A DNA stretch of 28,898 nucleotides from a virus: the IMG/VR virus record IMGVR_UViG_3300042560_000170, positions 1 to 28,898 of that record; one strand, written 5' to 3'. Made by a program: the position numbers and the translations under genes. Below, piece by piece: positions 1,231 through 21,041 of this stretch. Within the stretch, counting starts at the first letter, position 1; each line of letters begins with the position of its first letter. The notes under the pieces are model-generated. The model saw only the letters and a program-made list of their open reading frames with translations, was not told the origin of the DNA and did not search any database.

Positions 1231-1421
1231 ATCAAGGTTGGCCACCAGAGCGCTTATTTGAGCGCAGGGAAGGCTTCCAGGAGGGTATGAAGGTCTGTAG
1301 TGCCTGCGGCGAGACAAAGCCCTCTGAGGGCTATTACAAGCGTTCCAGAGGGGGTTGGTATTCAGAGTGCAAGGCTTGCCACAAAAAGCGCGTTATCTCA
1401 AATACATCGGCGCATAAATAG
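1107..1421 (+). CDS. Phage HTH-like domain fused to a Cys4 zinc motif
   Basis: The protein has 104 residues. Residues 12-50 (TLTLKEWARRSRISFYTLK, then GWPPERLF) match the small domain often found in phage HNH-type and regulatory proteins, where it is thought to bind DNA. Residues 63-95 carry two pairs of cysteines: C-x2-C-G-E-TKP-x2-GYYK, then C-x2-C-HKKR. This resembles the zinc-binding half of HNH nucleases or related recombination-endonuclease-like proteins, but no catalytic HNH residues follow, because the protein ends soon after. The start may be ATG 1107 or ATG 1116. It converges with the transglycosylase gene, and the two overlap by 29 bases. Confidence 0.65.
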   Translation: MQKMPRKIYDNREVTIGSTTLTLKEWARRSRISFYTLKWRIDQGWPPERLFERREGFQEGMKVCSACGETKPSEGYYKRSRGGWYSECKACHKKRVISNTSAHK

Positions 1422-2751
1422 AGGGGGGCTGTAAGCCAGCGCCGGTCTCTTGTGCCTTCTTGGCTTTGTCGTAAAGGTACATTGCAATCGGACTGCCGAC
1501 TGCCGTGGCCAGACCTACACCCCTGACAGCAGGGTTAGGGAATATTGTAGCCAACCCACCTAAGGCACCAGCGCCAGCGATGGCCGCGCCAGGATCATCG
1601 CCGGCCTTCAGTCTTGTATAAGCTTCTTGGCCACCTTCTGCTGCAGCAAGACCGCCTAAGCCACCAGAAACGACAGGCGATCTGAAGGGTGCCGTCATGC
1701 CTCGACCCATTGCCCTGCCAACATTAGCAGTGGTCTGTTGGGTGCGCTGTAGTAACGAAGGTCTTGGTGGCGGTGTCGTTCCCTGCGGTGGAGGGATGTC
1801 TGCATAGACCTGGCTAGAGGGAAGAAGCACGCCAGAAGGCGTAGCAGTTAAGCCAGGAGCCTTGGCCATCACAGACTTTGCATCACCCGTAATAACGCCT
1901 TGCCGCTGCAGTTGCTGCATGATGTCTGCTTGCTGTTTAGCGGCGGCAGCTTGTTGTGACGTACCCGTCTGGTAAGTCGTCTGTCGTGCCCGTCCTGTAG
2001 CGCCAGCATCAGTCGTGCCCTGCATTTGCCGAGTGTGCATCGGATCAGTAGGAATAGGGGCTGGTGGCGTTCCTTGCCTAGCAGCAGCCGCTTGTGCAGC
2101 TAGGATGTCACGCACGTCACGCAAGCCTGATGCTGTAGCCGAGCCAACCTCTGCAACCTTAGCGCCAGCAGCGCCGGCACCCATGGCCATCAAATCAGTT
2201 AAAGCCTGAGCCTTTGCTTCTGGATTCTGAAACTTGCTCAGAAACTCTTCTGTGACGTTTTTATCCTTGCCCTGATCGCCTTGATCTTCTTGCTCTGGTG
2301 GTTTCGGCATATCTGTAAAGCCACCAAGCTTATAAATGTCTCGGACATAATTCTCTGTGGACTCTGGCAGCTTTCCCTTTGTCGGATCAGATAAGTAAGT
2401 GAGTTCAGGGCCGGCATTGTAGGCAATCGCAGCCAGCATCGGATCATTGTCGTAGCGATCCAAGTGACGCCGCAGGATGTCAACACCGATACTGATATTT
2501 CTAGCCGGATCAGCTAACTCCTTTGGGTCGTAACCGTACTGCTTTGCAGTCCCTGGCCGCACTTGCATAAGACCCACTTCATCTTTAGTGCCCATGGCAC
2601 CCGGATTTAGCTTGCTCTCCTGCCAAGCCAGTGCCAAAGCAAACCGCGGTGACACGCCACGCTTTTCTGCTTCCGTAACGATCAGATCAGCATATTTAGC
2701 CTGCTCTGGCGAGAGCGAATTAAGGAAGGGCAGGATGTCTTTATCTTCCAT
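1393..2751 (-). CDS. Lytic transglycosylase (SLT domain), putative virion ejection protein
   Basis: The protein has 452 residues. Residues 15-140 form a soluble lytic transglycosylase domain: catalytic Glu45 in QESKLNP, the GLMQVRP motif at 60-66, AYNAGP at 110-115 and ENYVRDI at 133-139. These enzymes cleave the MurNAc-GlcNAc bond of peptidoglycan, forming 1,6-anhydro ends. The rest is an acidic linker (150-165), Ala/Gln-rich helices, Pro-rich stretches (320-335) and hydrophobic Gly/Ala segments (360-420). It lacks a signal peptide, so it is more likely packaged in the particle and injected to open the cell wall, as with T7 gp16 (an analogy, not homology). It is the last gene of the leftward operon. 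Confidence 0.85.
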   Translation of the reverse strand: MEDKDILPFLNSLSPEQAKYADLIVTEAEKRGVSPRFALALAWQESKLNPGAMGTKDEVGLMQVRPGTAKQYGYDPKELADPARNISIGVDILRRHLDRYDNDPMLAAIAYNAGPELTYLSDPTKGKLPESTENYVRDIYKLGGFTDMPKPPEQEDQGDQGKDKNVTEEFLSKFQNPEAKAQALTDLMAMGAGAAGAKVAEVGSATASGLRDVRDILAAQAAAARQGTPPAPIPTDPMHTRQMQGTTDAGATGRARQTTYQTGTSQQAAAAKQQADIMQQLQRQGVITGDAKSVMAKAPGLTATPSGVLLPSSQVYADIPPPQGTTPPPRPSLLQRTQQTTANVGRAMGRGMTAPFRSPVVSGGLGGLAAAEGGQEAYTRLKAGDDPGAAIAGAGALGGLATIFPNPAVRGVGLATAVGSPIAMYLYDKAKKAQETGAGLQPPSIYAPMYLR

Positions 2752-2759
2752 GATATGCC

Positions 2760-4292
2760 TTATGGAGTTGTTATGCCGATGCGCCTACGAATGTCTTGGC
2801 CTGCAGTGGTTGGTGCTCCTGCTTGTCTTGGTGCGCCAGGTTTGGGCACAGGAATATTGACGCTCTGAGCAATCTGGCTCACGCGGTCCAAATAACTTTG
2901 CACCATGGAGTTGTATTGATCTTCATTCTCTTCTTTGAATGAATCAAGTGACTTCTTAGACTTTCGTATGACACGTCCAAGATCACGATCAAACTCAGCA
3001 CGCGCTTGCAAGAGTTGGACCTTGCGCAAAATAGTCGCCGGATTGTCTTGCGGTGATATTGCTGCCAAAGCAAACAACTCGCGCTCAAAGTTAGAAACAG
3101 ACCCTTGACCCTGTGCAAGCTTGGCCATCTGCAATTGAATGTTGGCCATCGTATTGAGTGCCAACTCATACTTGTTGATCGTCTCTTGCTCTAAGCCAAC
3201 ATTCCGCAGGGCATCAGCAAGGGAGCCAAGCTGGATAGTCTTAGAGTCTGCTCGAATGCCATCATTGACTAGCCTTGTGATAGCGGCACCTACGGTAGGT
3301 CGATTCAGGATACCGAAGATCTGACTTGCATCCTTGCCACTAGCAATCGTTTGAAGCAGGCGATATTGAGACATGCGACTAGTGACATCGCCTTGCTCAA
3401 TCGCTTGCTGCGTGCGGCTAACTTCTGCCTTAGCTGTTTCTGTTGCGGACGTTTCTTCGCCCTTGGCCGCTGCTGCCTGCTGGGCTACTGTGCGTAAGCC
3501 AAGGCCTGTGAGGAATCTGTCACCAGCGTCTTTCCCACCTTCGCTTAAAGCCTTTTCATACCTTGCAAATTGTCTTGGCGTCATCCGCATGTCTCCCATG
3601 TGAGTCGGGAAGACATCAGGCTTATCCTGGCGAAGGTCGGCAATAACTTGGCCATCACTCTTGCGCACTAATACGCCATCAGCAAAGGCTAAGTCTTGAC
3701 GCTCATCTTCACGCAGCTTGCGTATAAATTCCGCTGTTTGTGCGTAACGCGGATTGCGCGACATCATGACTAAGTCTTGATCAGTCAGACTATTTAATCC
3801 AGTCTTTTGTGCTGAGGGCGGTAAAACTTCAGCCTTTGGCTCTGGACGCGGAGCTAACGGCGCTCCAGCCTGAACGGCAGGTTCTGCAGCAGGTTCTGCA
3901 GGTTTGCCAGGTTCTGCAGGTTTTGCACCCGTTAACTTGGGAAGGATGCGCTTATCCATCTCAGCAGCTTGGGTCAGGGCTAGATCAGCCGCAGCTAATT
4001 CACGCTCCATGCCTAACCGCTCGAGACGCTGCTTTTCTGCTGTGGCTTGCGCAGGACCGACTAAGGCGGCGGCGTTAGCGATAGACTCACCAAACGATCC
4101 CGTCTTGGTAGGCGCTAAGAACCCTTGTGCCATAGCGAGAAGCACTGGATCAAACAACTGCTGCCGGTTTTGCAGGGCATCTCTTAACTCTTGCTGGATA
4201 CGCTGCAGATCCTCAATCTTTGTTTGCTCTTCAGTCGATTGACCAAAGTAGCTAACAGGCAGATTGGCAAGACCGCTTCTGGGTGTAGTCAT
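2760..4292 (-). CDS. Putative internal virion protein
   Basis: No family was recognised for this 510-residue protein. It has a helical N-terminus with coiled-coil character (EEQTKIEDLQRIQQELRDAL near residue 22). A Pro/Ala/Glu-rich linker follows at about 120-160 (GKPAEPAAEPAVQAG), then a long Gln/Ala-rich helical body containing an F-A-R-YEKALSEGG segment and a C-terminal basic/helical zone (SKKSLDSFKEENEDQYNS). There is no signal peptide or clear membrane span. It lies between the transglycosylase and two other Ala/Gln-rich proteins, the position held by internal core or ejection proteins in podoviruses. That role is inferred from context. Confidence 0.55.
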   Translation of the reverse strand: MTTPRSGLANLPVSYFGQSTEEQTKIEDLQRIQQELRDALQNRQQLFDPVLLAMAQGFLAPTKTGSFGESIANAAALVGPAQATAEKQRLERLGMERELAAADLALTQAAEMDKRILPKLTGAKPAEPGKPAEPAAEPAVQAGAPLAPRPEPKAEVLPPSAQKTGLNSLTDQDLVMMSRNPRYAQTAEFIRKLREDERQDLAFADGVLVRKSDGQVIADLRQDKPDVFPTHMGDMRMTPRQFARYEKALSEGGKDAGDRFLTGLGLRTVAQQAAAAKGEETSATETAKAEVSRTQQAIEQGDVTSRMSQYRLLQTIASGKDASQIFGILNRPTVGAAITRLVNDGIRADSKTIQLGSLADALRNVGLEQETINKYELALNTMANIQLQMAKLAQGQGSVSNFERELFALAAISPQDNPATILRKVQLLQARAEFDRDLGRVIRKSKKSLDSFKEENEDQYNSMVQSYLDRVSQIAQSVNIPVPKPGAPRQAGAPTTAGQDIRRRIGITTP

Positions 4293-4295: not shown

Positions 4296-5327
4296 TTACG
4301 TTCCATAATCGCCCATTAAGCCGGTCTCGGTACCGCCGCCAGTAAGAGACCCCAAAGATGGCAATCCACTGCCTATGCCGCTGAAAATATCTTTAATACC
4401 GCCCAACACCCCGCCGGCAGCACTCTTGTCTACTGCGCCTATCAAAGTGCCAAGACCTGCAATCTGTGACAAGGCGGAAGGACTCATGACTGTTGGCAAC
4501 TCTTCCTTCGTTTCTTCCACTGATGTCGGATAAGTGTAGCCACGCATAATCTCAGCCACATTCTGAGCGCGTTTAAGTGGCGCCTCAAGGATCGACTGCT
4601 CGTAAGCCAGACCTTCTTTGCCGATGTCTGCCAGTTGCTTAATTGCTGCTGGCGTAGCAGTGGACTCAACACTGCCTAGAGAACTCAACCCACCTACTAA
4701 GCCTTGCTGGGTAGCCTGTTCACGCAGGGCTGCTTCGAGGGCTTGCTTGTAACCCGACGACATCAACTCAGCTTGCTTACCCAATAAGCTTGCCTGAACG
4801 TCACCTAAAGCCTGTCCTGTTGCGCCGGCATAGCGTTGGCTACCAAAGGCTCCCTGGCCAGCAAAGGCACCACGCAAGGACGGCAGAAGGTTTCGCTGAA
4901 CATTTAAGGCTGACTGCCTTGAAAGCTCATCAATCACGCCCTTCTGGTAAGGATCGTAAAACTTTGAGATGTCTGTGGCGCCTACATCTTCGGCTAATCC
5001 GCCGACTCGAGAAGCTGCATCAAGTGGTGTCTGATAACGGGTGAGATCTGACAACTGAGGTAACGCAGCACCTTCAGCAGGCGTCATCAGGTTCGCGTAG
5101 AAATCCGGCCTTGCAGCGATCAACTCCTGGCCAGTAAAAGGCGTGACAGTTGACGGTGTTCCTGGTGTAGTTCCTGTTGCTGCCGTGCCAGGCGTTACCG
5201 TGCCCAGCGCACCCATACCTGCTTGCGATAAACCCGTCAGGTAATTGGTTAGGTACTCAGGCGTCTTGGTTACTGAACTCTTTTGTAACTCGACGGGATC
5301 TGGGGCGGAACCTTGAAATAGCGACAT
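4296..5327 (-). CDS. Putative virion protein, Ala/Gly/Gln-rich
   Basis: The protein has 343 residues. The N-terminus (SLFQGSAPDPVELQKSS) is followed by a Thr/Pro/Gly linker (TPGTAATGTTPGTPSTVTPF). A helical core at about 130-235 has the pattern SLRGAFAGQGAFGSQRYAGA, then repeated Ala/Gln helices. That G-A-x-G-S-R segment is familiar from uncharacterised virion proteins of environmental phages. The C-terminus is Gly-rich. An AGGAG site precedes the ATG at 5327. With neighbours on both sides it probably forms part of the ejected internal complex or tail hub. Function unproven. Confidence 0.55.
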   Translation of the reverse strand: MSLFQGSAPDPVELQKSSVTKTPEYLTNYLTGLSQAGMGALGTVTPGTAATGTTPGTPSTVTPFTGQELIAARPDFYANLMTPAEGAALPQLSDLTRYQTPLDAASRVGGLAEDVGATDISKFYDPYQKGVIDELSRQSALNVQRNLLPSLRGAFAGQGAFGSQRYAGATGQALGDVQASLLGKQAELMSSGYKQALEAALREQATQQGLVGGLSSLGSVESTATPAAIKQLADIGKEGLAYEQSILEAPLKRAQNVAEIMRGYTYPTSVEETKEELPTVMSPSALSQIAGLGTLIGAVDKSAAGGVLGGIKDIFSGIGSGLPSLGSLTGGGTETGLMGDYGT

Positions 5328-5336: not shown

Positions 5337-8300
5337 CTATCGTTTCTTGAGGTAATCCAACGGGCTTTTAAGTGCCGGTGGCGGCAAGTCTTTAGGCTTG
5401 TTGGATCTTGCACGCTGGCGAATGGCGTGCATCATTTCGTAAAGCTTCTCGGTCCCTGCTTTGGTCGAGCCATTACCCAGCGCTGCAACCACATCAGCAG
5501 GAAAGACAAATTCACCGTCGGCCAGCATGGCAGGAATGTCATCTGATTGACCATCGCCGGGGCCGGCAACATGTTTGCCATCACGGAAATCTTGCCTTGG
5601 TAGTCCACCCTTGGCATACATGAATTGAGGGTTCATCACCTGACCGCCCATGCGGTAAACAGGCTCCTCTTCTTCCACGCCCACAGGAATCTCACCGAAG
5701 ATTTCATCCATTGAGGGTTCTTGGCCGTAGGTGTAATAAGGTAAGCGCATTTCTTCCTCTTGGACTGGCGTTTCTGGCACTTCTGGAACAACCGGCAATC
5801 GCGTATCAAACACCCCAGCTAGCGGGTCATAATACTTGCCTAATTCCTTGGATTGTAAGAGTTTTCCACCCAGCCAATCCTCTGGCGATTTTCGCCCAGA
5901 AAGGCTCGCCGCGGCAAGCATTCCAGCTTCACCACCAGAAATAGAAGGCTTGGTTACAGTCTTCTTTGTTTCAGACGGGGTAACGGGAGAAACGTCTGCT
6001 TGAAGCGTTGGAACAACGGGTGGAATAACAGGCTGAAGTTGGATGATGCTTTTCGCATCCTCAATGATGGCAGGATCAAGATCGCCAGACCCGCCAGATA
6101 CCGAGTCTTGCTTTCCTGTAGCGAGATCCGTAACGTATTGAACGAAAGTATTAGTCTTTAAGTCAACAACCGTTTCAACGCTCACGTTGTTGTTGCTCGT
6201 GACATTCACAATCGAGTTACCTGAAATACTGGTATTTGAGGTACTGTTACCTACGACTGTAGAGACACTTCCTGTCTTGCCATCTGATGTGATCGTTACC
6301 GTCTTATTGCCATCATCAGTGACTTTTGTCGTGTTGCCATTTGAATCAGTCGTGATCTGCACGAGATTCTTGCCATCATCGGTCACTTGTACGGTTTGAT
6401 TGCCATCTGACTGCGTGACTGTGACGGTGCCAGTCTTGCTGTCTGAACTAGTTTGCTGCGTGATATTGCCGCTAACAACTGTTTCGATGACATTGTTACC
6501 AACCGTCTCGGTGGCTTTTGTTGTGTTGCCATCCACCACGATGGTCGCCTGACCGCCTGATGTTGTAGGACCCGACGTTGTCGTTCCCGGTGTTGCCTCT
6601 GGCGCTACAGCAGGCCTCATTGAGGCTAACAATTCCGGCGATGAACGAAGCTTGGCTAATACCTGATCATTTGTCGGATTGCCTTGCATCAAGGAATCGA
6701 CGGCCTCTTTGGTCGGCGTCAGGCCCATGCTTTGCAAAGTTGCCTCAACGTCAGACCTTGCGGCTGCTTGCTGACCTATAGGGGCATTCTGTATGACTGG
6801 CGTGCCACCTGTAACGGGCAAGTCACTGGTGACTGGTGTACCACTCGTAGCAGGAACTCCACTATCAGGCGTACCACGCAGCGACTGAATAAGTTCAGCC
6901 TGAGATTGCATGCGTGCCAGAACTTCTTGATTGGTAGGCGAGCCTTCCATCAGCGAGCTAATCAGCGCGTCTGTTGGCTTGACACCCATCGCATCAAGTG
7001 TGGCCCTTACATCAGCCTCTTTAGCCAATTCTTTGACAGTCGATTTATCGCCGGCACCAGACAAGTCGATCTTGTCACCTACCGCTGCCTTATCACCTAA
7101 TTCGGTAGTGCCTAACGCAAGCTTATCGCCCAGGTTTACTAAGGCAGCGCTGTCATTGATCAATTGATTGGCTTGATCTACTGTCAGACCTTCTTGCTTT
7201 AATGTCACCTGCAAGCCATTGAGCACCTGACCAAGGTCTACGTTGGCAGCGTCAGCGCCGACAAGCATGTTGGCAATCAGTACGCTGTCATTGATGCCCT
7301 CTGCTCTGCCGGTCTGGTAAATCGTTGTCAGAGCGCTTGTAGGGTCAGCCTGGGATTTCAATGATGACGATGTAATCGCTGCAATACCCGGCGTGCCAAG
7401 CTCATCAATAGATTGAGCGGTTGCATTACCGATGGCATTGGCTTGCGATGCCGCATCAAGGGTTGTCATTACTGCTGATGTTTTGCCGCCGAGCCAGCCG
7501 CCAAGGATGGTGTCTGTAAGCGCTTCGTTAGCGTCAACTGATCCTTTGGAAGCTAGTTGCTTGGCAACGCTTCCTGCGCCCTCTTGAAGGCTTTCACCAA
7601 CGGTTTCTTTTGCCCCGCTACCTAAAACTGTAAGCGCTCTTTTGCCAATTGTTTGACCTACATCTGCACCCTCTTTAGCTAATACTTTGAGAATGGGCAG
7701 GTCTGTTAATGGACTAAGAACACTTTCTACAACCCCAGCCGCAAAGGCGCCAGGCGAGGCTGCTTGAGCGGCTTGCGTAGAGGTCAGGCCGAGATTCTCA
7801 AATCCTTTTGCTAACTCTTCTTGGGTTAGCCCTTGAGTCTCAAGGAAGTTTGCAATACCGTCTGCAAAGGCTGCGGCCCGCATGCTGCCTGTTAATTTCA
7901 ACACCTTGGCAGCAACGCCAATAGGCACTAACTCTTCAGCGCCTTCTGTGGCCGTCCACCACATAGCAGAGGCTGGGTTTTCAATAACCGCATTGACTAA
8001 CGCACTGACTTTGTTTTTGAACCCGTCTGCATTGGAGACAGCATCACCGATTTGTTGTGCGCCATAAGCAAGCTCGGGCACCACAATATCGCCAGCAGTC
8101 GAGGCAATATCACCTATCTGCCTCATAAGCGTTGAGACGCTATTTTGCGTGTCACCCGTAACACTTGAAGCGACGCCAGCAATAATGTTGGGCGTAAGCG
8201 CTGCAACCTTAGCGGTCAATGAATTAACAAGGTTTTGCGCATCAGAGGCTACTTTGCTGCCTGCGGCTACACCGCCAAGCACTGTGTTTTTGAACTCATC

Positions 8301-11201
8301 AAATGATGTGGGCGGATTCTCGTAAATGTCTGACGGTGGACGGTAGGCAATCTCAAAGGGCAATGAGATGCGCTGGCCTGCTGCCACTCGAGGTGCTTGA
8401 GAGTAAAGATAAGCCTGGTAGCGCTGATCAAGCGTGGATGGATCAATGCCAAGCTTAGGATCGCTCATCAAGGATCTGAACTCTTGTGGCGACATCAATC
8501 TTGCTGTCGTGGCATTGAACGCATCAAACCCTAGCGGGGTTTTCATGAGACTTAAGTCCCATTGCGTGGCGCCGGTAAGGTCTAATGACTTCTGATTCTC
8601 TGGTGCCGTCTTATCGACAGGCTTGCCAGAAAGGTCTGGGCGCTCTTCTGCTGTAGCGGTGCTATAGAGCTTGCCGCCATAATTGAAAGTAGCGTTGGGG
8701 CCAAACTCTGCGCGGGCTATTGCGTAGGCGTCATTAAACGATGCTGCATTTGCGATTCTTGCATTGACTTCGGCTGATTTATCCGCACCGGCAAACTCAC
8801 CCGCTCCGGCAGCAATGGCAGCACGTTGATCGGCGCCAGAAAACTCACCTGCTCCGGCGGCGATTGCCGCTTGATCTTGTGCAGCCTTATTTAATGCCGC
8901 CGTTCTTGCTGCGGCCACTTGACGCTCAACACCGTCGAGAATGTCATTGGCTTGTGCTGTATCAAAGCCAGCCGCTTCCAATTCTTTAACTGCAACGTTT
9001 CGCGCAAGTGCTGGCGTACCAAACTCTGGATCGACTTGTGAGTAACGATTTATTACATCAGCCGACACGCGCCTTTGATTGATAGCCGTATCAGCCTGCG
9101 CGGCTAAAGTATTTGCTTGTTCAGCACCAACAAGATTTGTTAACTGACCGACAAGACCTTCACGGCTTAAGTCATTCCCTGGCCCTAGATAGTCTGAAAT
9201 GGCTTGGTTTGCAGCTATGACGCGCTGTTGCTGGGCGATCTGCTCATCTTCTGTCGGAGACCCTGGTGGTTTCAACTGCGTCAATGGGCTTGTAATGCCA
9301 CCAGCATCAGCGTCAATCGCACCGATGTCTTTGCTATTGATTAGCAAGTTGGCAACGTCAGACTTCGCTGTTAGGTTGTTGACGTTATTGATCAGCCCTT
9401 GGCCAGCGGCCATGATTGCCTGAGGATTGCCTGACTCAATCGCCTTTGCAAGCTGCAGCGCAGAACCTGCGGTTGATACTTCAGAGCTACCCGTTAGTGA
9501 GCCAACGCCTCGTAAAGCGCCTGCGTAGTCGCCTGCATTGATGCGATCAACAACATTAGCCGCGGTAATAACATCATTAACTTTTAACCCGCCGCCAAGA
9601 TCAGTTGATCCTAGTTGTGCGCCAAGATCAGTCTGACCCATGACGCTCATAAGTGCGCCGACATAGTTACCGCTATCGACAGCCTTATAAACATCATAAG
9701 CCGCAGAAACGACTGGTGGCGCAACCATTTTTACAAAGCCAGAGATGTCTCCCTGCATTGCACCGCGGGTTGCTACATAAATCTGTGCAGGAATCTGCCA
9801 CGGACCAGGAACCCAAGCCAGAGCCGATGCGGCCATGTCAAGGAATGTCAAACCCATATCCTGTTCGACAGCACCCTTGTACATTTTCGGGTCGCCAACA
9901 GGTATTAGCTGATCGCCTTCTGCACGATAAAGCTGTGCCATGCGCTCACGATTTGGACCGCCTGTTTTCCCACCAAGGAAGAAGAAAGCGTTGCCTGAAG
10001 CTATGTCTTCAGGCGTAATTTCTGACGCGCCAACCTCTTTTAATTCACCATTGACGATCTTGTAACTGTTAGCAAAAGTGCTGGTATGAGGCCCAATAGC
10101 ATCGGCAATAACAGGATTGTTTTGCAACAAGTAATCAATTGCGGTCGCAGGCGTTTGCTCATAACCGCTCACATAGGGATCATAGTCACCACCTGGCTGC
10201 GTATAAACGGGCGTCTCAACAAAGCCAAACGGCGCATTCGTAGATAGATCTGCCTGATCAATACCAGCCTTCCATCTTGCCAGTTGATCGCCAGCCGTTT
10301 CATATCCTGCATCACCAAGCGACTTGTCGTAAAACGTCGGAACAGCAACGCCTTTGTAATATCCGCTGCCGCCGAGTTGCTCTGCAACGTTGCCAAACCC
10401 ACTTGAAAGAACGCTTCCAGGGGTAAACGTCTGCTGCAAATCGGAAACAGCACCAACTTCTGGCTGTGCTGGTTGTTGACCCGCTGCCGCCAAGTCTTTC
10501 ACCCTTTGTGCATCAGCCTCAGCAACAGTAGCGTATACGGTACCGTTATAGGTTCGTGCTGCAAGCGTTGTGTCTTGCGGCAAATTACCCGGCACTGGTG
10601 GTCCTTGATCTAATACACTCAAGCCACCGGCAGGAGGTCTGGCAGCAATCTCAGCCTGTGAGGCCTGTCTAAACGCAGCCTCTTCTTCTGGTGAGACGTC
10701 ACTGCCAAACTGTGATGCCCAATAAGCAAGACCGCCAGGATCTGCCTCTCGGCCTAAGACACTTTGGTAAAGATTCTTGACAGCGTCTTGATTAACAACT
10801 TCTGGCGCAAATTGTCTGCCTTCTGTTGCGCCATACAAGGCATAGTGACGCTGTGCCTCGAGGGGTGTATCAATACCAGCAGCGCCAAGATCTGAATAGC
10901 GCGTCAGGTAATTCTGCCAATCAAAATTAGCTGGCAACTTTGACTGATCAAAAATAACGCCTGACATCCAATTATCAGCCGATGGTGGTGGGCTTGCAGG
11001 CTGTACGTTGATGGTCGGTTGCCCAATAGGCTTTAAGCCTTCAAATTCTTGCAGTAACGCGTTGATCCCGCCAGCCTTGGTGTAATAATCAATGTCTGCA
11101 GGCGACAAGGTTTGGCCAGGGAAGTAAGACTGATAAAGCGACTGCAATTCGTTAGCATCGCCCTCTGGATTAATTCTGATAGTCGTTTCGTAGAGTGACA
11201 T
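5337..11201 (-). CDS. Giant multidomain virion protein with DUF4214 region
   Basis: At 1954 residues this takes a fifth of the window. Residues 95-130 carry a YLTRYSDLGAAGI ... HYALYG-x2-EGR repeat, followed by a DUF4214-like segment at 137-185 (NLYQSVLGREADPGGLAYW). The middle (about 400-1350) is Ala-rich and helical, with segments resembling phage internal-virion polyproteins. Residues 1396-1441 and 1483-1529 are a diverged direct repeat. Residues 1540-1705 are a Thr/Asn/Val-rich beta region. Residues 1869-1954 match a widespread phage C-terminal module (GPGDGQSDDIPAMLADGEF, then ALGNGS). No catalytic motif was seen. It may be an ejected internal protein or a tail-hub protein; the final module is common on virion proteins. 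Confidence 0.65.
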   Translation of the reverse strand: MSLYETTIRINPEGDANELQSLYQSYFPGQTLSPADIDYYTKAGGINALLQEFEGLKPIGQPTINVQPASPPPSADNWMSGVIFDQSKLPANFDWQNYLTRYSDLGAAGIDTPLEAQRHYALYGATEGRQFAPEVVNQDAVKNLYQSVLGREADPGGLAYWASQFGSDVSPEEEAAFRQASQAEIAARPPAGGLSVLDQGPPVPGNLPQDTTLAARTYNGTVYATVAEADAQRVKDLAAAGQQPAQPEVGAVSDLQQTFTPGSVLSSGFGNVAEQLGGSGYYKGVAVPTFYDKSLGDAGYETAGDQLARWKAGIDQADLSTNAPFGFVETPVYTQPGGDYDPYVSGYEQTPATAIDYLLQNNPVIADAIGPHTSTFANSYKIVNGELKEVGASEITPEDIASGNAFFFLGGKTGGPNRERMAQLYRAEGDQLIPVGDPKMYKGAVEQDMGLTFLDMAASALAWVPGPWQIPAQIYVATRGAMQGDISGFVKMVAPPVVSAAYDVYKAVDSGNYVGALMSVMGQTDLGAQLGSTDLGGGLKVNDVITAANVVDRINAGDYAGALRGVGSLTGSSEVSTAGSALQLAKAIESGNPQAIMAAGQGLINNVNNLTAKSDVANLLINSKDIGAIDADAGGITSPLTQLKPPGSPTEDEQIAQQQRVIAANQAISDYLGPGNDLSREGLVGQLTNLVGAEQANTLAAQADTAINQRRVSADVINRYSQVDPEFGTPALARNVAVKELEAAGFDTAQANDILDGVERQVAAARTAALNKAAQDQAAIAAGAGEFSGADQRAAIAAGAGEFAGADKSAEVNARIANAASFNDAYAIARAEFGPNATFNYGGKLYSTATAEERPDLSGKPVDKTAPENQKSLDLTGATQWDLSLMKTPLGFDAFNATTARLMSPQEFRSLMSDPKLGIDPSTLDQRYQAYLYSQAPRVAAGQRISLPFEIAYRPPSDIYENPPTSFDEFKNTVLGGVAAGSKVASDAQNLVNSLTAKVAALTPNIIAGVASSVTGDTQNSVSTLMRQIGDIASTAGDIVVPELAYGAQQIGDAVSNADGFKNKVSALVNAVIENPASAMWWTATEGAEELVPIGVAAKVLKLTGSMRAAAFADGIANFLETQGLTQEELAKGFENLGLTSTQAAQAASPGAFAAGVVESVLSPLTDLPILKVLAKEGADVGQTIGKRALTVLGSGAKETVGESLQEGAGSVAKQLASKGSVDANEALTDTILGGWLGGKTSAVMTTLDAASQANAIGNATAQSIDELGTPGIAAITSSSLKSQADPTSALTTIYQTGRAEGINDSVLIANMLVGADAANVDLGQVLNGLQVTLKQEGLTVDQANQLINDSAALVNLGDKLALGTTELGDKAAVGDKIDLSGAGDKSTVKELAKEADVRATLDAMGVKPTDALISSLMEGSPTNQEVLARMQSQAELIQSLRGTPDSGVPATSGTPVTSDLPVTGGTPVIQNAPIGQQAAARSDVEATLQSMGLTPTKEAVDSLMQGNPTNDQVLAKLRSSPELLASMRPAVAPEATPGTTTSGPTTSGGQATIVVDGNTTKATETVGNNVIETVVSGNITQQTSSDSKTGTVTVTQSDGNQTVQVTDDGKNLVQITTDSNGNTTKVTDDGNKTVTITSDGKTGSVSTVVGNSTSNTSISGNSIVNVTSNNNVSVETVVDLKTNTFVQYVTDLATGKQDSVSGGSGDLDPAIIEDAKSIIQLQPVIPPVVPTLQADVSPVTPSETKKTVTKPSISGGEAGMLAAASLSGRKSPEDWLGGKLLQSKELGKYYDPLAGVFDTRLPVVPEVPETPVQEEEMRLPYYTYGQEPSMDEIFGEIPVGVEEEEPVYRMGGQVMNPQFMYAKGGLPRQDFRDGKHVAGPGDGQSDDIPAMLADGEFVFPADVVAALGNGSTKAGTEKLYEMMHAIRQRARSNKPKDLPPPALKSPLDYLKKR
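6615..7016 (-). repeat. Diverged domain duplication in the giant gene
   Basis: Two related segments lie about 87 residues apart. One reads DVRATLDAMGVKPTDALISS then SPTNQEVLARM (roughly 6880-7016). The other reads DVEATLQSMGLTPTKEAVDS then NPTNDQVLAKL (roughly 6615-6755). Both look like two-helix units ending in SLR/SMR, and a Gly/Thr/Pro linker separates them. Confidence 0.7.
8775..8870 (-). repeat. Tandem 48-bp in-frame repeat in the giant gene
   Basis: Two adjacent units encode AAIAAGAGEFSGADQR (8823-8870) and AAIAAGAGEFAGADKS (8775-8822). The 48-base spacing preserves frame, so it looks like a slippage or unequal-recombination duplication that has drifted at synonymous sites. Confidence 0.75.
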
Positions 11202-11449
11202 CAGTTAGTCCTTGGATTAACAGCCCCGACAACAGCAGAGGCCCAATCCTGCCATTCATCAAAAAGATATGGATCTGGGATGCCCTCATTAACGAACACA
11301 TCAATCGCTAGCAACCCAGCAGCCCAACTCTTCCAATCAAGATCTGCGGTAGGGATTTGCAATTGCTGTGCCGCATAAGCTTCGACCATGAGACTTGCCC
11401 ATGAATCAAAGGTATGAAATCTGGGGTCATACACTAACGGGACTGTCAT
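11201..11449 (-). CDS. Small conserved phage protein, unknown function
   Basis: The 82-residue product is rich in Trp and acidic residues, with a repeated aromatic pattern: FDSWASLMVEAYAAQQL, LDWKSWAAGLLAIDVF and FDEWQDWASAVVGAVN. It reads as a compact helical protein. The start overlaps the upstream structural gene in an ATGA junction, and the stop touches the ATG of the giant protein, so all three are likely co-translated. It could be a small neck or core component or a chaperone for the giant protein. No family name is offered. Confidence 0.6.
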   Translation of the reverse strand: MTVPLVYDPRFHTFDSWASLMVEAYAAQQLQIPTADLDWKSWAAGLLAIDVFVNEGIPDPYLFDEWQDWASAVVGAVNPRTN

Positions 11450-13716
11450 GTTGAGTAGCCTCGCACATCACCCAAGTCTGCCGTGATGATGACCTTACCT
11501 AATTGGTAATCGCCACCTTCCGTATTGGATACGAATTTCAGACGCAACTCACGGCGCTGCTCTTTCATGTCAATTTTGCCTGTATTTGCATCAAAGACAT
11601 AGGCCGTAGACGTCTGATCAGCCTCTTGCGCGTAAGGTCTGCCTGTAACGTAAAGCTCTATCTCGCCTTCTTGCACGAAGTCTGGCTCTACACGTTCAAC
11701 CCGCAGCCAACGATTCTCACCAATCGGTGATGGTTGTGATGGACCGCCAGCAACCCAACCAAGGTCTGATGTCTCAAATGACGACTCAATCGCTAGGACG
11801 TTGGTGTTATACACCTGATCGGTTCCAACCTCGTGTTCCCAGAGGCGGACAAAGGTCATCAGACTATCCACTTCAATTTCAAAGTCTGCGCCACCAGGAA
11901 TAGCGGCTGAAAGGAAGTCTCCCACCACATAACCTGATCCGCGGTCTTCAATCGTTACCGAAGTAATAGACCCGCCCGATACCACGATGGTAGCTGTAGC
12001 GCCGGAGCCATTGCCGCCTGTTAGCGGTTCGTAGGAATAGGTCCCGTTGGTATAACCTGTGCCCGCATCCGTGATGGTGAAGTCAACAACACCGCCCTCT
12101 GCAGACGGTTCCCAACCAGCGTTAACCGGGAAGCGAAACACTTGCGAGAAGTAACCAGCAGAACGTCTGGCGCCAATAGCCTGGCCTGCGTCATACCAAA
12201 CATTCTCACGCACGTTGTAAATCACTGCATCAGTACATTCTGTTGCCGTGCCTCGAGGATAGAACCACCACACCTCGCCAAACCTGGGAACCTTGGAAGC
12301 CCAAACCTTCTGGCGTTGTGCATAGTTGAGATTGTCAAAAAACCAGTTCTGGTTGAACTGATTGGGAATCTCTTTAACCACGCCGTTGTAGAGCAGGAAC
12401 CGATCCACACCGCACCAGTAATAGATGCCGTCATATTCAATGATGGACTGCGATGAAAGGATCGACGACTGCGACGTGATGATGTCATACCGCCAAAAGG
12501 TTGGGGCGGCAAAATTTGCCGTTCCTGCGACACCAATGGATGTGGGTGCATAAGACACGCGAATCACAGAGTCCAGTGACCAAAATAATCCCGAAGGCGC
12601 ATTGGAGCCACCGCGCACAGGCAGGCCTTGGACGATCTTTCCTGTGGCCACGTTCACTGCGTTGGCATCAGCAGATACCCAATCATCAATATTGCCTGCA
12701 GCGCAGTTTCTGATCAGTCCGTCATTGCCGTACACAAACACATAAGGATGCAATGCAACGACACCACCTGATACGGACACCTCGTTATCGAAGGTAAGTG
12801 ATACGTTAGTGTTACTTGCTGTTGCTGCTTGCGTCAGTACAAGATTGGTCAGTTGCACAGACTCTACGCGAGTGCCTACAGGGATGCCTGCCCCTGTTAC
12901 TAATTGGCCTGCGCCGATGTTCAGATTGGTTGCTGATAAGGTTACGGCTGTCGAGCCATTCGTTATCGTTGCCGCGGTCTCGCTAAAGACGCCAATCGCA
13001 TGCAGGGTTGAGCTACTTACTGCTCCTGCCATGACAGGCGTATTGGTTTCTGAGTCAATCTGAGAAAGGTCTTGCGATGGATGCGCAAGCAATAAATTCT
13101 GGCCGCTGCCTGATGAGTCTTTGAAGGTATCAAACTGCCAGAGATTGTTATCCGAAGCTGTGAACGGGCTGTTAATCGTAGCCACCAACACAGCGAATCC
13201 AGAACCCGTGCCGCCAATGCTTGAAGCAGCAGCGCTTAGGCTATCGCCTTGCATGTACTGAAAACCACTGCCTGTGAGCGTGACCGTTGTGACAACGTTG
13301 CCTGATACGACGACAGTAGCAGTTGCACCTTGGCCACTGCCGCCCGTAAGCGCCACACCCGTGTAGGTGCCATTGGTATAAGACGACCCTGCAGTAATCG
13401 CTCCTAGCGTCGCAATAGCGCCTGAGAAGGTGTAATTAACGATCCCAGAGCCTACGCCGTTGTTGTCAACAGGAATGTACTGCAGGCCATTGTTGTAGCC
13501 GCTGTAGACGTTATTAAACGAATTGCGCGGCAGGACATAAACGCCACGAGAAGGCCCGGCTAAACCTTGAACGATTTGCTTAAAGCCGCCAATCTTGCGA
13601 GGGCGCTTGCGTTGAAAGCGAACCCAGACACCGTCCACATAATACTCACGGTCAAACACCGTGCCATCACGCTGAATGCCGGGCTGTGTATCAAGCGCAA
13701 AGACCTTCTTGGCCAT
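11446..13716 (-). CDS. Large structural protein with inserted beta modules
   Basis: The 756-residue N-terminus (residues 1-60) contains DGVWVRFQRKRPRKIGGF, a pattern common in uncharacterised environmental phage structural proteins. The core looks beta-rich, with recurring aromatic strands (FWRYDIITSQSSILS, GIYYWCGVDRFLLYNG, VWWFYPRG) that suggest a propeller-like body. Three inserts interrupt it: two related TNGTY modules at 109-175 and 550-616, and another beta module at 247-310 (VTGAGIPVGTRVESVQL). The C-terminus (620-756) resumes the core. It sits next to the SU10-like adaptor and a fibre-like gene, so a neck or tail-hub role is inferred. Confidence 0.65.
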   Translation of the reverse strand: MAKKVFALDTQPGIQRDGTVFDREYYVDGVWVRFQRKRPRKIGGFKQIVQGLAGPSRGVYVLPRNSFNNVYSGYNNGLQYIPVDNNGVGSGIVNYTFSGAIATLGAITAGSSYTNGTYTGVALTGGSGQGATATVVVSGNVVTTVTLTGSGFQYMQGDSLSAAASSIGGTGSGFAVLVATINSPFTASDNNLWQFDTFKDSSGSGQNLLLAHPSQDLSQIDSETNTPVMAGAVSSSTLHAIGVFSETAATITNGSTAVTLSATNLNIGAGQLVTGAGIPVGTRVESVQLTNLVLTQAATASNTNVSLTFDNEVSVSGGVVALHPYVFVYGNDGLIRNCAAGNIDDWVSADANAVNVATGKIVQGLPVRGGSNAPSGLFWSLDSVIRVSYAPTSIGVAGTANFAAPTFWRYDIITSQSSILSSQSIIEYDGIYYWCGVDRFLLYNGVVKEIPNQFNQNWFFDNLNYAQRQKVWASKVPRFGEVWWFYPRGTATECTDAVIYNVRENVWYDAGQAIGARRSAGYFSQVFRFPVNAGWEPSAEGGVVDFTITDAGTGYTNGTYSYEPLTGGNGSGATATIVVSGGSITSVTIEDRGSGYVVGDFLSAAIPGGADFEIEVDSLMTFVRLWEHEVGTDQVYNTNVLAIESSFETSDLGWVAGGPSQPSPIGENRWLRVERVEPDFVQEGEIELYVTGRPYAQEADQTSTAYVFDANTGKIDMKEQRRELRLKFVSNTEGGDYQLGKVIITADLGDVRGYST
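11869..12069 (-). repeat. TNGTY beta-module, copy 2
   Basis: Encodes residues 550-616 of the same protein: GTGYTNGTYSYEPLTGGN, then GATATIVVSGG and GDFLSAAIPG. It lies about 1.3 kb from copy 1 within one gene. Such modules recur as inserts in phage structural proteins. Confidence 0.75.
13192..13392 (-). repeat. TNGTY beta-module, copy 1
   Basis: Encodes residues 109-175 of the large structural protein: SSYTNGTYTGVALTGGSG, then GATATVVVSG and a final GDSLSAAASS. It is about 67 residues long and matches the second copy at 11869-12069 position by position at most glycines, threonines and valines. Confidence 0.75.
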
Positions 13717-14956: not shown

Positions 14957-15592
14957 TTAGCTATCCATAACAACGGCTTGACGGTCTGCAATCCGTAGCT
15001 TGTTCTCAACGGTCAAAGCCTGCATGAAAAAGTCATATTGCTGCTGGTAATCATTGACCAAGTCAGGATTCTTAAGGAACTTGGCCGCTTCCATCAGTGA
15101 GCCAAACAGCAGCGCATTGGGCGCATAAATCGTAAACCAGTTGGTTTGGTTGGCAGAATCCAATGGCTGAATGCGCTCGTAATAGAGAATCTCAAACGCA
15201 TAGTCATCATCAGGGGTCGGCGCAATGATCCAGTGCGTGTAGTCATAGTCGGCATAAAACTTTGGCTCATCAGTGCTTGCCGGCTCTGGCCAATACTCAC
15301 GCAGGTACTCATAGGCTCGCAAGAAGACAGGCTTGCGGCGACCAGCCACTGTGATGTTAAAGGACACCGTTTTATGCCAGCGGGCTGGCTTGTCGATGAT
15401 GTTCTGGCCCTGCACAAGGTTGCTTGTCTGAACTGTCAAATTGCCGAGGATCTTTAACTGCGTGGCAATCTTCTGTTCTGTCAGGCCAATGAACGTAGGA
15501 ATCATGTTGAGCGTTGCCTGGTCGGTACGCTCGAGATACTTGGGGATGTCGGCCACCAAGCTATCGTAGGTCATGACATACGCTGCTGTCAT
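14957..15592 (-). CDS. Head-tail adaptor (SU10 adaptor-like)
   Basis: The protein has 211 residues. It has an N-terminal helical pair (MTYDSLVADIPKYLERTD, then IGLTEQKIATQLKI). A beta middle with R-x-Y-E-Y-LREYWPEP follows, then a WIIAPTPDDDYAFEILYYER strand pair, and it ends in helices (LLFGSLMEAAKFLKNP, YQQQYDFFMQAL). This layout matches the SU10 adaptor family, ring proteins under the portal that join the head to the tail. Family length is about 200 residues, so it looks complete. It lies between the lysis-associated genes and the large structural genes. A different adaptor-like protein is encoded at 26086-27156. Confidence 0.75.
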   Translation of the reverse strand: MTAAYVMTYDSLVADIPKYLERTDQATLNMIPTFIGLTEQKIATQLKILGNLTVQTSNLVQGQNIIDKPARWHKTVSFNITVAGRRKPVFLRAYEYLREYWPEPASTDEPKFYADYDYTHWIIAPTPDDDYAFEILYYERIQPLDSANQTNWFTIYAPNALLFGSLMEAAKFLKNPDLVNDYQQQYDFFMQALTVENKLRIADRQAVVMDS

Positions 15593-17573: not shown

Positions 17574-17887
17574 ACTGAATCGGCTCCAACACTTTGTTGC
17601 GGCACGATCCACTGACATGTCGCTTCATCAAGCGTTGCATCATCACTAGGGCGCGGTGGAATAAACGCATCCCGCACTGCATCAAACGTATAGCCAATCC
17701 CAGCATAGTTCTTTCTGAAATTAGCGTTATACGAAGTCTGTTTCCACGTTCCACCGAGCAAACGCTCACAGAAGGCTGCGCCGATGTATTCCTTCTCCAC
17801 GCCGAAAGCATCAGCCGTGTCTTTGTTGTCTACAACGATCACTTGTTGGACGATGTTGTTTTCGTCGATCCGAGCAAAATGTGACAT
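17570..17887 (-). CDS. Conserved phage protein (YNANFRKNYAGIGYTFD family), unknown function
   Basis: The protein has 105 residues. It contains HFARIDENNIVQQVIVVDN, GGTWKQTSYNANFRKNYAG and a DAFIPPRP ending, a pattern widespread in cyanophages and other aquatic phages where it is uncharacterised. The ATG at 17887 overlaps the oxygenase stop (TGATG); a GTG three bases upstream is an alternative. It is probably a virion or small accessory protein. High recognisability of the blocks gives good confidence that the gene is real, but none on function. Confidence 0.7.
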   Translation of the reverse strand: MSHFARIDENNIVQQVIVVDNKDTADAFGVEKEYIGAAFCERLLGGTWKQTSYNANFRKNYAGIGYTFDAVRDAFIPPRPSDDATLDEATCQWIVPQQSVGADSV

Positions 17888-18489
17888 CACGCCTCCAGTT
17901 TCAATCCAGTTAAGTCCATCTCTTCCCCAACAGTACCCACAGGGAAGGTATTAAACGATAAAGATATGCGGGTTGTTTCACCCTGCACGTTAGGAACCAT
18001 GTGTGTTAAAGATGAGGGGAACAGAATCAGTCGGCCTGCATAAGCCTCAAACCACCAACTCTCTGAGTTATACGCATTCCAGTTATCCGTAGGAAACTTG
18101 ATCTGCTGCCAGCCGTCTTTGTAGAAATAGATTCGGTCATCAGGATTGGTCTGCACATAAAACACGCCAGAGATGTACGAATTGGGATGTGCGTGTTTGT
18201 GGTGGTATTGACCTTGCTCTGAGTAATTGCACCAGCTTTGCGTGACTCTAAGGCTGACATTGTGCTTTGGGTTGACGGTGGATTTGAAGTATTCCGATAC
18301 CGAATCTTCAATGAATGATCTGAGTGACGTTAAGGCTGGATCACGCAAGACAAAATTGTTCGTGCTTGTCGTGTTACCCATATTCGGGCGTGTCTCAAGC
18401 TCACGGATGAAGAACAACTCTTCATCGCTTAACGGGCGACCGAGATCGGCAAAACCTACCGCTGTGGGGAATAGGTTATGCAATTGCAT
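17887..18489 (-). CDS. 2OG-Fe(II) dioxygenase (2OG-FeII_Oxy_5 type)
   Basis: The 200-residue protein has a jelly-roll oxygenase pattern. It shows QYHHKHAHPNSYISGVFYVQ (metal-binding His pair, then the S-G-V-F-Y-V strand) and GRLILFPSSLTHMVPN (distal His). The R-I-S-L-S-F-N segment carries the Arg that usually binds the 2-oxoglutarate carboxylate. These enzymes use Fe(II), O2 and 2-oxoglutarate for hydroxylation. The substrate is unknown; phage homologues of this type are uncharacterised. ATG 18489 is preferred over TTG 18495 because an AGAG site lies about eight bases upstream. It overlaps the upstream gene's end. Its neighbours are fibre, small phage and lysis genes. Confidence 0.8.
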   Translation of the reverse strand: MQLHNLFPTAVGFADLGRPLSDEELFFIRELETRPNMGNTTSTNNFVLRDPALTSLRSFIEDSVSEYFKSTVNPKHNVSLRVTQSWCNYSEQGQYHHKHAHPNSYISGVFYVQTNPDDRIYFYKDGWQQIKFPTDNWNAYNSESWWFEAYAGRLILFPSSLTHMVPNVQGETTRISLSFNTFPVGTVGEEMDLTGLKLEA

Positions 18490-18733
18490 CTTCAATCTCT
18501 TTCATCTTGATGCCCATTTCCTCTAACTGCTCTGGCAACCACATCGTGGGGATGCTTTCCTCAAACTCTTTGATCTTGTCCATCACCCAGTAGACTTCAT
18601 CCATTGACGGGCAGGGGCGTGGATCATCCCAGCGTGTGAATTGATTGTTCGTGATTTCCCACTTAGCACCGGGGCGAAGCATGTGCATCGCCGTATCAAT
18701 GCCGAGGAAGCGGTAGACCTTCGTGTTTTCCAT
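18476..18733 (-). CDS. Small phage protein, unknown function
   Basis: The 85-residue protein has a helical pattern and a central GAKWEITNNQFTRWDDPRPC segment. It is followed by an acidic helix (DEVYWVMDKIKEFEES) and a Glu-rich C-terminus. It may be a tail-fibre assembly or chaperone protein, as it follows a fibre gene, but the family was not recognised. An AGAGG site four bases before the ATG at 18733 supports the start. Its end overlaps the oxygenase start by about 14 bases, suggesting coupling. Confidence 0.6.
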   Translation of the reverse strand: MENTKVYRFLGIDTAMHMLRPGAKWEITNNQFTRWDDPRPCPSMDEVYWVMDKIKEFEESIPTMWLPEQLEEMGIKMKEIEDAIA

Positions 18734-18741: not shown

Positions 18742-20580
18742 TTATTGATTGATCTTGATGATTACAATGCCGGATGAACCATTACCCCCGGCTGCGGAAC
18801 TACCATTGCCGCCACCACCAGAACCTCTGTTTGCGGGAGAAGCGTTGCCACCAACAGCGGTTGAATTTGAGCCGTTTCCTCCGATACTTGAACCGCCTGT
18901 GCCAGCAGTCCCACCGTTAAACGATCCTCCGCCACCTCCGGCGGCATACGTCAACGATGACCCAGATATTGTTGATACTGTCCCTGCGCCACCATTACCT
19001 CCAGCGGTTGATGTCCCATTTCCGCCCGTTCCGCCGTGAGCATTAGGAGCAGCAGGTGCTGGGCCAGTAGGTTCTTGTGAGCCACCGCCGCCACCGCCTC
19101 CGTAGTTAGGCGCTCCGCCTGTGCCTCTACCATTTCCGCCATTTCTTCCTTGTTGAGGATTGGCTGGCGCTCCATTCCCACCATCAGAAGATGCTGCCGG
19201 TGAATTACCGGTTCCGCCTGTTGCTGGGCTTCCGCTTGTAACTGCCCCCCCGCCTCCGGAGCCTCCATTTGAACCTATAAGTACAAAGTCACCAGCACCT
19301 CCACCGCCGCCAGCCGATGCTATTCCGGGCGAGGCAAAAGGCGATGGACTTGATCCACCAACAATAGATGACAGGTAACCGTTACTTCCTGAACCTGAAG
19401 TGCCGCCAGCGCCAGACGCCCCAACCGTAATTGTTAACGTAGCGCCTACCGTTACGCTTTGACTTGCACCAGTTCTAAATCCGCCAGCACCTCCACCACC
19501 GCCTTGCGGCCCCCCACCCCCACCTCCACCACCAACGATCAAGTAATCAATTGACGTAACACCAGTAGGCACAGTCCACTGACCAGACCCTTTGAAGGTG
19601 AATACGGTTTGTGATGGTGCTTGATATTTCAGAATGACAATGCCGGAGCCGCCTGATTTTGTTGGGTCCGCTCCAATTTGACTGTCCCAACTTTGCCCTC
19701 CAGCTCCACCGCCTGTATTAACCGTTCCGGCTACTGACACTAAATTGTTACTGCTAGGCGTGATTGTTGATACACCTCCAGCTCCACCGCCTCCAGCTCC
19801 ACCTGCTCCACGATTTGAAGATGAGCCACCGGAGCTTGCAATAAAACCACCGCCACCGCCTCCAGCGTATGTCACCGATGTTCCGCTAATCGTTGATGCG
19901 GTTCCAGCTCCTCCGTCACCTGCTTTTGAATTACTTGCATCGCCACCTGTGCCGTTTGTTGCATCAGCACCACCCCCACCGCCACCAGCATAGTTAGGTG
20001 CGTTATTTATTCTTCCGACCCCTCCATTTCTTCCTTGCTTTGGATTGGCTGGCGCACCGTTACCACCATCCGACGAAGCGGAAGGTGTATCTCCTGTCCC
20101 GCCTATACAGTTTGGTGCGGAAAGTCCTCCCGTACCCGTGGAACCACCGCCACCAGAACCTCCGTTGTTACCAACCCCAATGTTTGGTGCTGAGCCAGAA
20201 GCAGAAGATGCACCACCTCCTCCGCCAGCAGAAGCAATGGTTGTAAATGGCGACGGGCCTGCTATTGATGAAAGACCACCGTCACTACCATTAGCAGTGT
20301 TATTGACTGGACTTGTAGACACAGCGCCAGCACCACCCCCTCCTACTGTGATGGTGTAATCGCTTCCGGCAGTAACGGCTAATCCTGTGCCTGTGCGAAA
20401 ACCACCTGCACCGCCACCGCCAGCTCCGTTTCTACCACTACCTCCACCACCACCTACCACAAGATACTCAACGCTTGTGACATTAGCAGGGCAAGTCCAC
20501 GTTGAGGTTGCTGTGAAGGTTTGGATGATGGTGTACCTACTCCCCATCGCTCCAATCAATAAATTAAGGATGCCAGTCAT
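18742..20580 (-). CDS. Glycine-rich tail fibre/tip protein with duplicated domain
   Basis: The 612-residue protein consists of two long copies of a Gly-rich domain at residues 21-318 and 326-611. Each begins with a strand pair (TFTATSTWTCPANVTSVEYL or TFKGSGQWTVPTGVTSIDYL). Each continues with VVGGGGG/IVGGGGG runs and closes with GSGIVILKY or GSSGIVIIKI. Gly-rich domains of this type occur in phage receptor-binding tips and related adhesins. There is no obvious signal peptide; the first 20 residues (GILNLLIGAMGSRYTIIQ) are a short hydrophobic lead. The ATG nearly abuts the upstream stop. It is the last large fibre before the oxygenase. Confidence 0.75.
   Translation of the reverse strand: MTGILNLLIGAMGSRYTIIQTFTATSTWTCPANVTSVEYLVVGGGGGSGRNGAGGGGAGGFRTGTGLAVTAGSDYTITVGGGGAGAVSTSPVNNTANGSDGGLSSIAGPSPFTTIASAGGGGGASSASGSAPNIGVGNNGGSGGGGSTGTGGLSAPNCIGGTGDTPSASSDGGNGAPANPKQGRNGGVGRINNAPNYAGGGGGGADATNGTGGDASNSKAGDGGAGTASTISGTSVTYAGGGGGGFIASSGGSSSNRGAGGAGGGGAGGVSTITPSSNNLVSVAGTVNTGGGAGGQSWDSQIGADPTKSGGSGIVILKYQAPSQTVFTFKGSGQWTVPTGVTSIDYLIVGGGGGGGGPQGGGGGAGGFRTGASQSVTVGATLTITVGASGAGGTSGSGSNGYLSSIVGGSSPSPFASPGIASAGGGGGAGDFVLIGSNGGSGGGGAVTSGSPATGGTGNSPAASSDGGNGAPANPQQGRNGGNGRGTGGAPNYGGGGGGGSQEPTGPAPAAPNAHGGTGGNGTSTAGGNGGAGTVSTISGSSLTYAAGGGGGSFNGGTAGTGGSSIGGNGSNSTAVGGNASPANRGSGGGGNGSSAAGGNGSSGIVIIKINQ
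18748..19605 (-). repeat. Glycine-rich domain, copy 2
   Basis: Encodes residues 326-611. It includes GAPANPQQGRNGGNGR and GIVIIKINQ, aligned with copy 1 across its whole length although internal Gly-rich loops differ in length. Confidence 0.7.
19627..20520 (-). repeat. Glycine-rich domain, copy 1
   Basis: Encodes residues 21-318 of the glycine-rich protein. It includes GAPANPKQGRNGGVGR and a closing GSGIVILKYQAPS. It pairs with copy 2 at 18748-19605. Confidence 0.7.
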
Positions 20581-20581
20581 G

Positions 20582-21028: not shown

Positions 21029-21041
21029 TTTTTGAGACTCC

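Follow-up and report, generated by a model that had tools for sequence, protein, structure and literature searches.

What does a phage do with a 1954-residue protein that appears to be assembled from unrelated parts? The protein is encoded in a 28,898-nt stretch of viral DNA (the window), an incomplete IMG/VR virus record of 28.9 kb, many relatives of which are on contigs of about 54-60 kb. A sequence-only reading of this DNA had described a multidomain virion protein with no recognisable core function, possibly a surface-contact part of an ejected or tail-hub machine, and had considered the presence of a DUF4214-like segment in it odd. DUF4214 is best known from secreted and surface proteins. 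We refer to the gene and its product as the slot gene and the slot protein, after the gene position that they fill in related phages.

Modules of the slot protein

The open reading frame (ORF) is real and is on the minus strand, which the sequence-only reading had not given. Its start codon overlaps the stop codon of an 82-aa ORF (TGATG). The 1954-aa ORF is not an assembly artefact, since it recurs with 66 nt differences in an independent metagenomic contig (L002). The codon changes between the two copies, 56 synonymous and 8 nonsynonymous, indicate in turn that the ORF is translated over its whole length and is under purifying selection. The ORF and its features are as follows.

5337-11201, minus strand: slot protein ORF, ATG start, 1954 aa, zero cysteine
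10809-10919, minus strand: YLTRYSDL...HYALYG unit, aa 95-131 (YLTRYSDL at aa 98, HYALYG at 119)
10635-10802, minus strand: DUF4214 (PF13946), aa 134-189
9345-10433, minus strand: block common to relatives L004-L007, aa 257-619, ~59% identity
8919-9284, minus strand: helical block present in most close relatives, aa 640-761, 50-65% identity
8604-8771, minus strand: short recurrent module AYAxARxxxGxxATFxxxGKxYSTAT, aa 811-866, in most close relatives
7227-8603, minus strand: helical middle, aa 867-1325, in L005 and weakly in L008, L027, L030 and L031
6873-7034, minus strand: helical repeat copy 1, aa 1390-1443, predicted helices
6612-6773, minus strand: helical repeat copy 2, aa 1477-1530, predicted helices
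6093-6548, minus strand: T/N/S-rich beta meander, aa 1552-1703, predicted strands
5340-5996, minus strand: constant C-terminal region, aa 1736-1954
5466-5597, minus strand: tape-measure-homologous core HVAGPGDGQSDDIPAMLADGEFVFPADVVAALGN, aa 1869-1912

All the features named from the sequence were found, and the picture of a multidomain mosaic holds, since blocks of the protein are common to the slot proteins of other phages. The YLTRYSDL/HYALYG element, previously described as a repeat, is present as a single unit and not as an array; related single units occur at the N terminus of the L051 slot protein (52% identity) and in L050. The DUF4214 segment is a bona fide domain, with a PF13946 match at aa 134-176 scoring 33.6 bits against a Pfam gathering cut-off of 23.2. 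Overall, aa 1-256 are nearly private to the window protein.

AlphaFold predicts a small alpha/beta domain at aa ~354-442, inside the block 257-619, and confident helices at aa 650-785. The long middle (aa 250-1340) is predicted to be mostly helical as claimed, largely at low confidence (mean pLDDT 57), and its model has no significant match among PDB folds (E>=0.18), for which reason we assign it no fold. The sequence-only reading had left some 900 middle residues unassigned. This stands as far as a named fold is concerned, but not for their relationships, because blocks 257-619, 640-761, 811-866 and 816-1325 (the last one common to L005) recur in other slot proteins. The 811-866 motif has one marginal match in cultured phages. 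The proposed domain duplication is well supported (score 136, shuffled maximum 53), each copy being modelled as a three-helix repeat. Strands are predicted at aa ~1552-1703, in agreement with the proposed beta region, and the closest solved fold is the OspA single-layer sheet. With E 2e-3 and a low TM-score, this weak match probably means just "single-layer beta meander". In the same model (aa 1380-1954, mean pLDDT 65, of limited confidence), a disordered linker follows the beta meander and the C-terminal module contains helices. The latter module is present as described, with SDDIPAMLADGEF at aa 1886.

Pfam and PHROG searches with the full protein returned DUF4214 alone, and no family covers it from end to end. 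Beyond DUF4214 and the tape-measure core, there was no PHROG, Pfam or solved-structure match. DUF6991/T2SSM/Ndr-type matches to window proteins were sub-threshold and were discounted as noise. As assessed by hydropathy, the window protein has no clear transmembrane segment and no strongly hydrophobic 19-residue segment, and we therefore make no claim of membrane insertion; many relatives' slot proteins do have a transmembrane segment.

Gene neighbourhood and the occupants of the slot

The slot gene lies in a cluster with the transcription order SU10_adaptor, 412 aa, 756-aa nozzle-like, 82 aa, 1954 aa, 343 aa, 510 aa and 452-aa transglycosylase (SLT). The nozzle and ejection labels are family names.

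14957-15592, minus strand: head-tail adaptor (SU10_adaptor domain match)
11446-13716, minus strand: nozzle-like tail protein, 756 aa (phrog_3287)
11201-11449, minus strand: 82-aa conserved protein, directly upstream of the slot gene (start/stop overlap)
4296-5327, minus strand: DNA-ejection-like protein, 343 aa (phrog_4287, "DNA ejection protein"), cysteine-free family
2760-4292, minus strand: 510-aa ejection-cluster protein, cysteine-free family
1393-2751, minus strand: lytic transglycosylase (SLT), 452 aa, ejection-type (SLT domain, 4e-24), cysteine-free family

Judging from these family matches, the cluster is a podovirus-type tail/ejection operon, with a gene order comparable to T7 gp11-gp12-gp13-gp14/15/16, and the group is one of short-tailed-type freshwater phages. 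The slot gene sits within the ejection cluster, adjoining nozzle and transglycosylase genes, as is typical of podovirus ejection genes. The flanks of a tape measure protein (TMP) gene, i.e. tail-tube/chaperone and tail-tip genes of a long tail, are absent, and SU10-type adaptor, nozzle-like and ejection/SLT genes are found instead. From this gene order, we infer that the slot protein is in the virion.

Elsewhere in the window, also on the minus strand, are a 2OG-Fe(II) oxygenase gene within the structural region (17887-18495; phrog_81, 8e-44) and genes for fibre-like proteins of 612, 839 and 723 aa (18742-25742), which are glycine-rich (PF21722) and T/S-rich with internal repeats. A second adaptor-like gene (26086-27156, minus strand, 356 aa) has an SU10_adaptor-like C-terminal part (27.4 bits, cut-off 27), preceded by an F5/8 type C (discoidin-like) domain (28.0 bits, cut-off 28.2).

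Relatives were collected by profile scans with the C-terminal module, which gave about 100 loci with the same gene position filled. In essentially all of them, the slot gene is preceded by the nozzle/82-aa pair and followed by the 343-aa, 510 and SLT genes. Complete slot ORFs range from 252 to 2507 aa. The neighbours align with those of the window over most of their length (adaptor 99%, 412-aa 96%, nozzle 93%, 82-aa 98% and 343-aa 90%), whereas a median of 18% of the slot protein is alignable; the 510 and SLT genes are intermediate. Only aa 1736-1954 are constant among slot proteins, narrowing to 1822-1954 in the furthest relatives (the C-terminal ~130-220 aa). As judged by alignment, the slot protein is thus a block mosaic: nearly every phage has its own combination of modules, and slot proteins that are otherwise unrelated have blocks in common at 50-65% identity. 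Positions 9337-10703 of the window and 6306-7672 of L003 are 100% identical over 1367 bp of DNA between flanks of 69-74% identity, which would mean either that the slot gene has recombined internally very recently or that the assembly is chimeric.

Among the occupants, the slot protein of L003 has five CPxGYxLGPDGKTCV EGF-like repeats at aa ~900-1030 (cEGF 8e-25), those of L026, L037 and L019 have collagen-like stretches, some others have Cys-rich domains, and one has a GDSL lipase/acylhydrolase domain. In a Limnohabitans MAG, contig L104 (5282-10489) has a syntenic cluster and 54% C-module identity, a hint of a freshwater Burkholderiales host. Three records with different named hosts (OQ594354, OL906435 and PP438419; Synechococcus MinM2, Planktothrix Pag-Yong1 and Pra-JY27) are all 65,014 bp long and gave an identical match.

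Variability on this scale might be neutral. The slot protein would then serve in assembly only, as a chaperoned spacer resembling a scaffold or a TMP; its length would be irrelevant at the envelope and its sequence a drifting filler, in line with lengths of about 300 to 2500 aa and unrelated sequences. This is very improbable, because comparison of the window with L002 shows strong purifying selection and because blocks are re-used in otherwise unrelated slot proteins. It is also improbable, if less so, that the slot protein is injected cargo, i.e. a polyvalent-type protein with exchangeable effector modules acting on host defence or metabolism. A large mosaic protein of the ejection set, with a GDSL domain in one relative, could suit such a role, but recognisable enzymatic effector domains are absent from the window protein (Pfam) and almost absent from the 101 relatives scanned, with no nuclease, methylase or toxin modules.

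DUF4214 recurrence and the cysteine step

When the DUF4214 segment was searched by tblastn against 50,697 phage records, there were zero matches even at E 0.1. Recurrence was therefore tested in IMG/VR, using window-derived DUF4214 seeds, for which four closer sequences served where a seven-sequence alignment was too diverse. The scan yielded 45 loci, at least 17 of which carry the domain in the slot gene, counting ORFs directly behind the nozzle/82-aa genes or ending in the C-module. A single ORF contains both DUF4214 and the C-module in 11 of these 17; the remaining 6 stop short of the C terminus, either through the end of the sequence or through a split in the ORF. The domain is always near the N terminus of slot ORFs, in 1-5 copies, and L039 and L050 are further slot cases. 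DUF4214 is therefore a recurrent component of the slot, and its presence in a phage protein of this kind can no longer be called odd. As in other PF13946 proteins the domain itself is bona fide, but here it is a small N-terminal module of a phage protein, whereas elsewhere it is found mostly in cellular proteins. In L191 (8797-9690/9724-11418) and L214 (4926-10700/10697-11452), the slot gene is split in two ORFs, one with the DUF4214 part and one with the rest, by a frameshift, a sequencing error or gene fission.

Such modules bring in the main rival explanation, which is that the slot protein is an external tail-hub or fibre adhesin, hanging on the nozzle by its C-module and binding host polymers through its N-terminal DUF4214, YLTRYSDL, EGF-like and collagen-like modules. 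Hypervariable modules are typical of receptor binders, DUF4214 is familiar from surface proteins, and a fibre on the exterior of the particle could also be built with collagen-like, EGF-like and DUF4214 modules. However, the window has separate fibre-like genes (18742-25742), and amino acid composition places the slot gene with the ejection rather than the tail genes.

Indeed, cysteine counts across the cluster (100 loci, three excluded) fall from 5.2-6.6 Cys per 1000 residues in the three genes upstream of the slot to 0.33 in the slot gene itself; the three genes that follow have 1.02, 0.08 and 0.09. Cysteines in the first gene after the slot come mostly from small inserted ORFs. No cysteine is found in 86 of the 100 slot proteins, or in 69 proteins (28.5 kaa) of the 343, 510 and SLT families. 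The slot gene is thus on the cysteine-free side of a step. T7 gp15 and gp16, Sf6 gp12 and gp13, and SU10 gp20-gp24 have 0 Cys, and the portals, nozzles and spikes of these phages have some; TMPs are Cys-poor (0.57 per 1000). Because T7 scaffold gp9 and the Sf6 needle are also Cys-free without being of the ejected type, the marker is not exclusive to ejection proteins. We found no literature on the absence of cysteine in ejection proteins, and the cysteine-free composition seen in the window protein is an empirical marker proposed here rather than a classical criterion. It may reflect avoidance of disulfides by proteins that are threaded through the tail. In practice, the step offers a simple genome-level marker for virion genes of the ejection set.

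Two loci depart from the step together. In ctpbd312 (L022, 6282-8201/8205-9443) and L114 (233-3220), the slot protein and the 343 homologue have 36/33 and 88/31 Cys, respectively, and the two genes after the 343 homologue have 0 Cys. This joint Cys-richness suggests that the slot and 343-type proteins interact physically; perhaps they cross-link or bind metal.

The tape-measure-like C terminus and known ejection systems

The core of the constant region, HVAGPGDGQSDDIPAMLADGEFVFPADVVAALG, matches a C-terminal element of TMPs. Alignment of profiles from 51 slot C termini and 13 TMP C termini (hhalign) gave a probability of 98.4% and an E value of 6.9e-15 over 45 columns, with 44% identity. When the GB2A, DSL-LC04 and L110 slot proteins are compared with the independently built PHROG TMP profiles, the match falls precisely on the module. 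In an unbiased search of PDB sequences, the sole match of the slot profile was the TMP of mycobacteriophage Douge (8zdo_S, 6.2e-6). The module profile scores on 54 of 56 prophage TMPs and on 0 of 1120 shuffles, a comparison that controls for composition only, the 56 having been collected with the identical motif. Most of the ten prophage proteins tested with PHROG are TMPs. Slot proteins have the core 78 aa from the C terminus; for most TMPs in the set, this distance is 96-129 aa. In lambda gpH (L232, 143-2704), which has zero cysteine, GEFVFTKEATSRIGVGNLYRLM lies about 100 aa from the end and resembles the slot C-module (GEFVFPADVVAALGNGS...LYEMM) by eye, and both lambda gpH and HK97 gp16 are below significance with the module profile.

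The statement that the protein has no recognisable core function thus needs correcting, given a C-module homologous to a TMP element and a gene located between nozzle-like and ejection genes. The homology is confined to the C-terminal ~45-residue core and the surrounding genes are those of a short tail, so the slot protein is not itself a TMP. The core could be a mobile structural or processing motif. The element also occurs, as GPGTGTSDSIPAxLSxGEFV, near the N terminus or within the first third, and not at the C terminus, of prophage proteins L117, L119, L126, L156 and L172, several of which are phrog_11341.

Gene position, the near absence of cysteine and the TMP-like C terminus favour the ejected-machine half of the earlier proposal, and surface contact by DUF4214 and the other variable modules may accompany it. 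An external adhesin is made unlikely not only by the cysteine step but also by the location of the C-module homologue in TMPs, which run inside the tail tube. We therefore prefer, with a probability of roughly 0.7, the view that the slot protein belongs to the ejection set as an internal virion protein built like a TMP, with a C-terminal anchor and swappable envelope-facing modules. The constant C-module would anchor the protein where the short tail opens (nozzle/hub lumen), and the long N-terminal and middle part, exchanged module by module, would be adapted to the host envelope. By analogy with TMPs, the C-module may be distal, the last 42 residues of the Douge TMP forming a trimer in the baseplate hub, with the slot-like motif outside the resolved part (PMC13033339). 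At infection, the slot protein would leave the virion ahead of or with the DNA, crossing the narrow portal/nozzle channel largely unfolded, which we propose as the reason for its lack of cysteine. It would then refold outside and line or extend a conduit with the 343-aa, 510-aa and transglycosylase proteins.

The closest counterparts by gene position and C-module are the slot proteins of Caulobacter phages RW/GB2A, DSL-LC04, Synechococcus MinM2 and ctpbd312, which differ from the window protein in their size (294-759 aa), absence of DUF4214 and unrelated N-terminal parts. They are labelled "tape measure", "hypothetical" or "calcium-binding", the first of these labels being explained by the PHROG TMP matches to the C-module. 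TMPs proper (lambda gpH, Douge gp16, PHROGs 3547/6090/25241/23013) share with slot proteins a GxGxxxSDxIPAxLxxGEFV motif about 80-130 aa from the end and a long, largely helical, Cys-poor build of very variable length. Unlike TMPs, slot proteins belong to a short-tail gene set without a long tail tube and have a longer conserved C-terminal extension ending in KSPLDYLK; outside the ~45 residues, neither the flanks nor any of the middle blocks are related to TMPs.

As in T7 (gp14/gp15/gp16), P22 (gp7/gp20/gp16) and SU10 (gp20-24), the genes form a block after the nozzle with a transglycosylase in the cluster, and like podovirus ejection proteins the slot protein is large, Cys-free and subject to mosaic exchange. 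We found no sequence similarity to T7/P22-type ejection proteins, and the slot protein does not clearly correspond to any of the three but is an addition to them. Mosaicism of ejection proteins is already published, with gp15 of 431-982 aa and gp16 of 609-1337 aa (PMC8954989), and the slot protein is therefore a new, extreme variant of it, its length varying ~8-fold as compared with 138%/120% for gp15/gp16 (PMC8954989). Such extreme module exchange between unchanged neighbours suggests that strong host-specific diversification acts on the DNA-delivery channel itself as well as on receptor-binding fibres. The conduits of TMPs and of ejection proteins are considered functionally parallel, both possibly forming a conduit through the envelope, with few obvious similarities (PMC10883804), which makes the shared C-module the most interesting part of our findings. 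Tentatively, and at somewhat less than even odds, an evolutionary link may exist between TMPs and one or more classes of podovirus ejection proteins, the C-module having been kept by or transferred to a short-tailed lineage and the rest having turned into a conduit tuned to the host, with exchangeable parts and with N-terminal modules (DUF4214, EGF-like, Cys-rich and others) that adapt delivery to different envelopes. The significant match at the C terminus is a concrete link between TMPs and an ejection cluster, testable in the cultured Caulobacter phage RW/GB2A, and suggests that the DNA-delivery machines of short- and long-tailed phages share parts.
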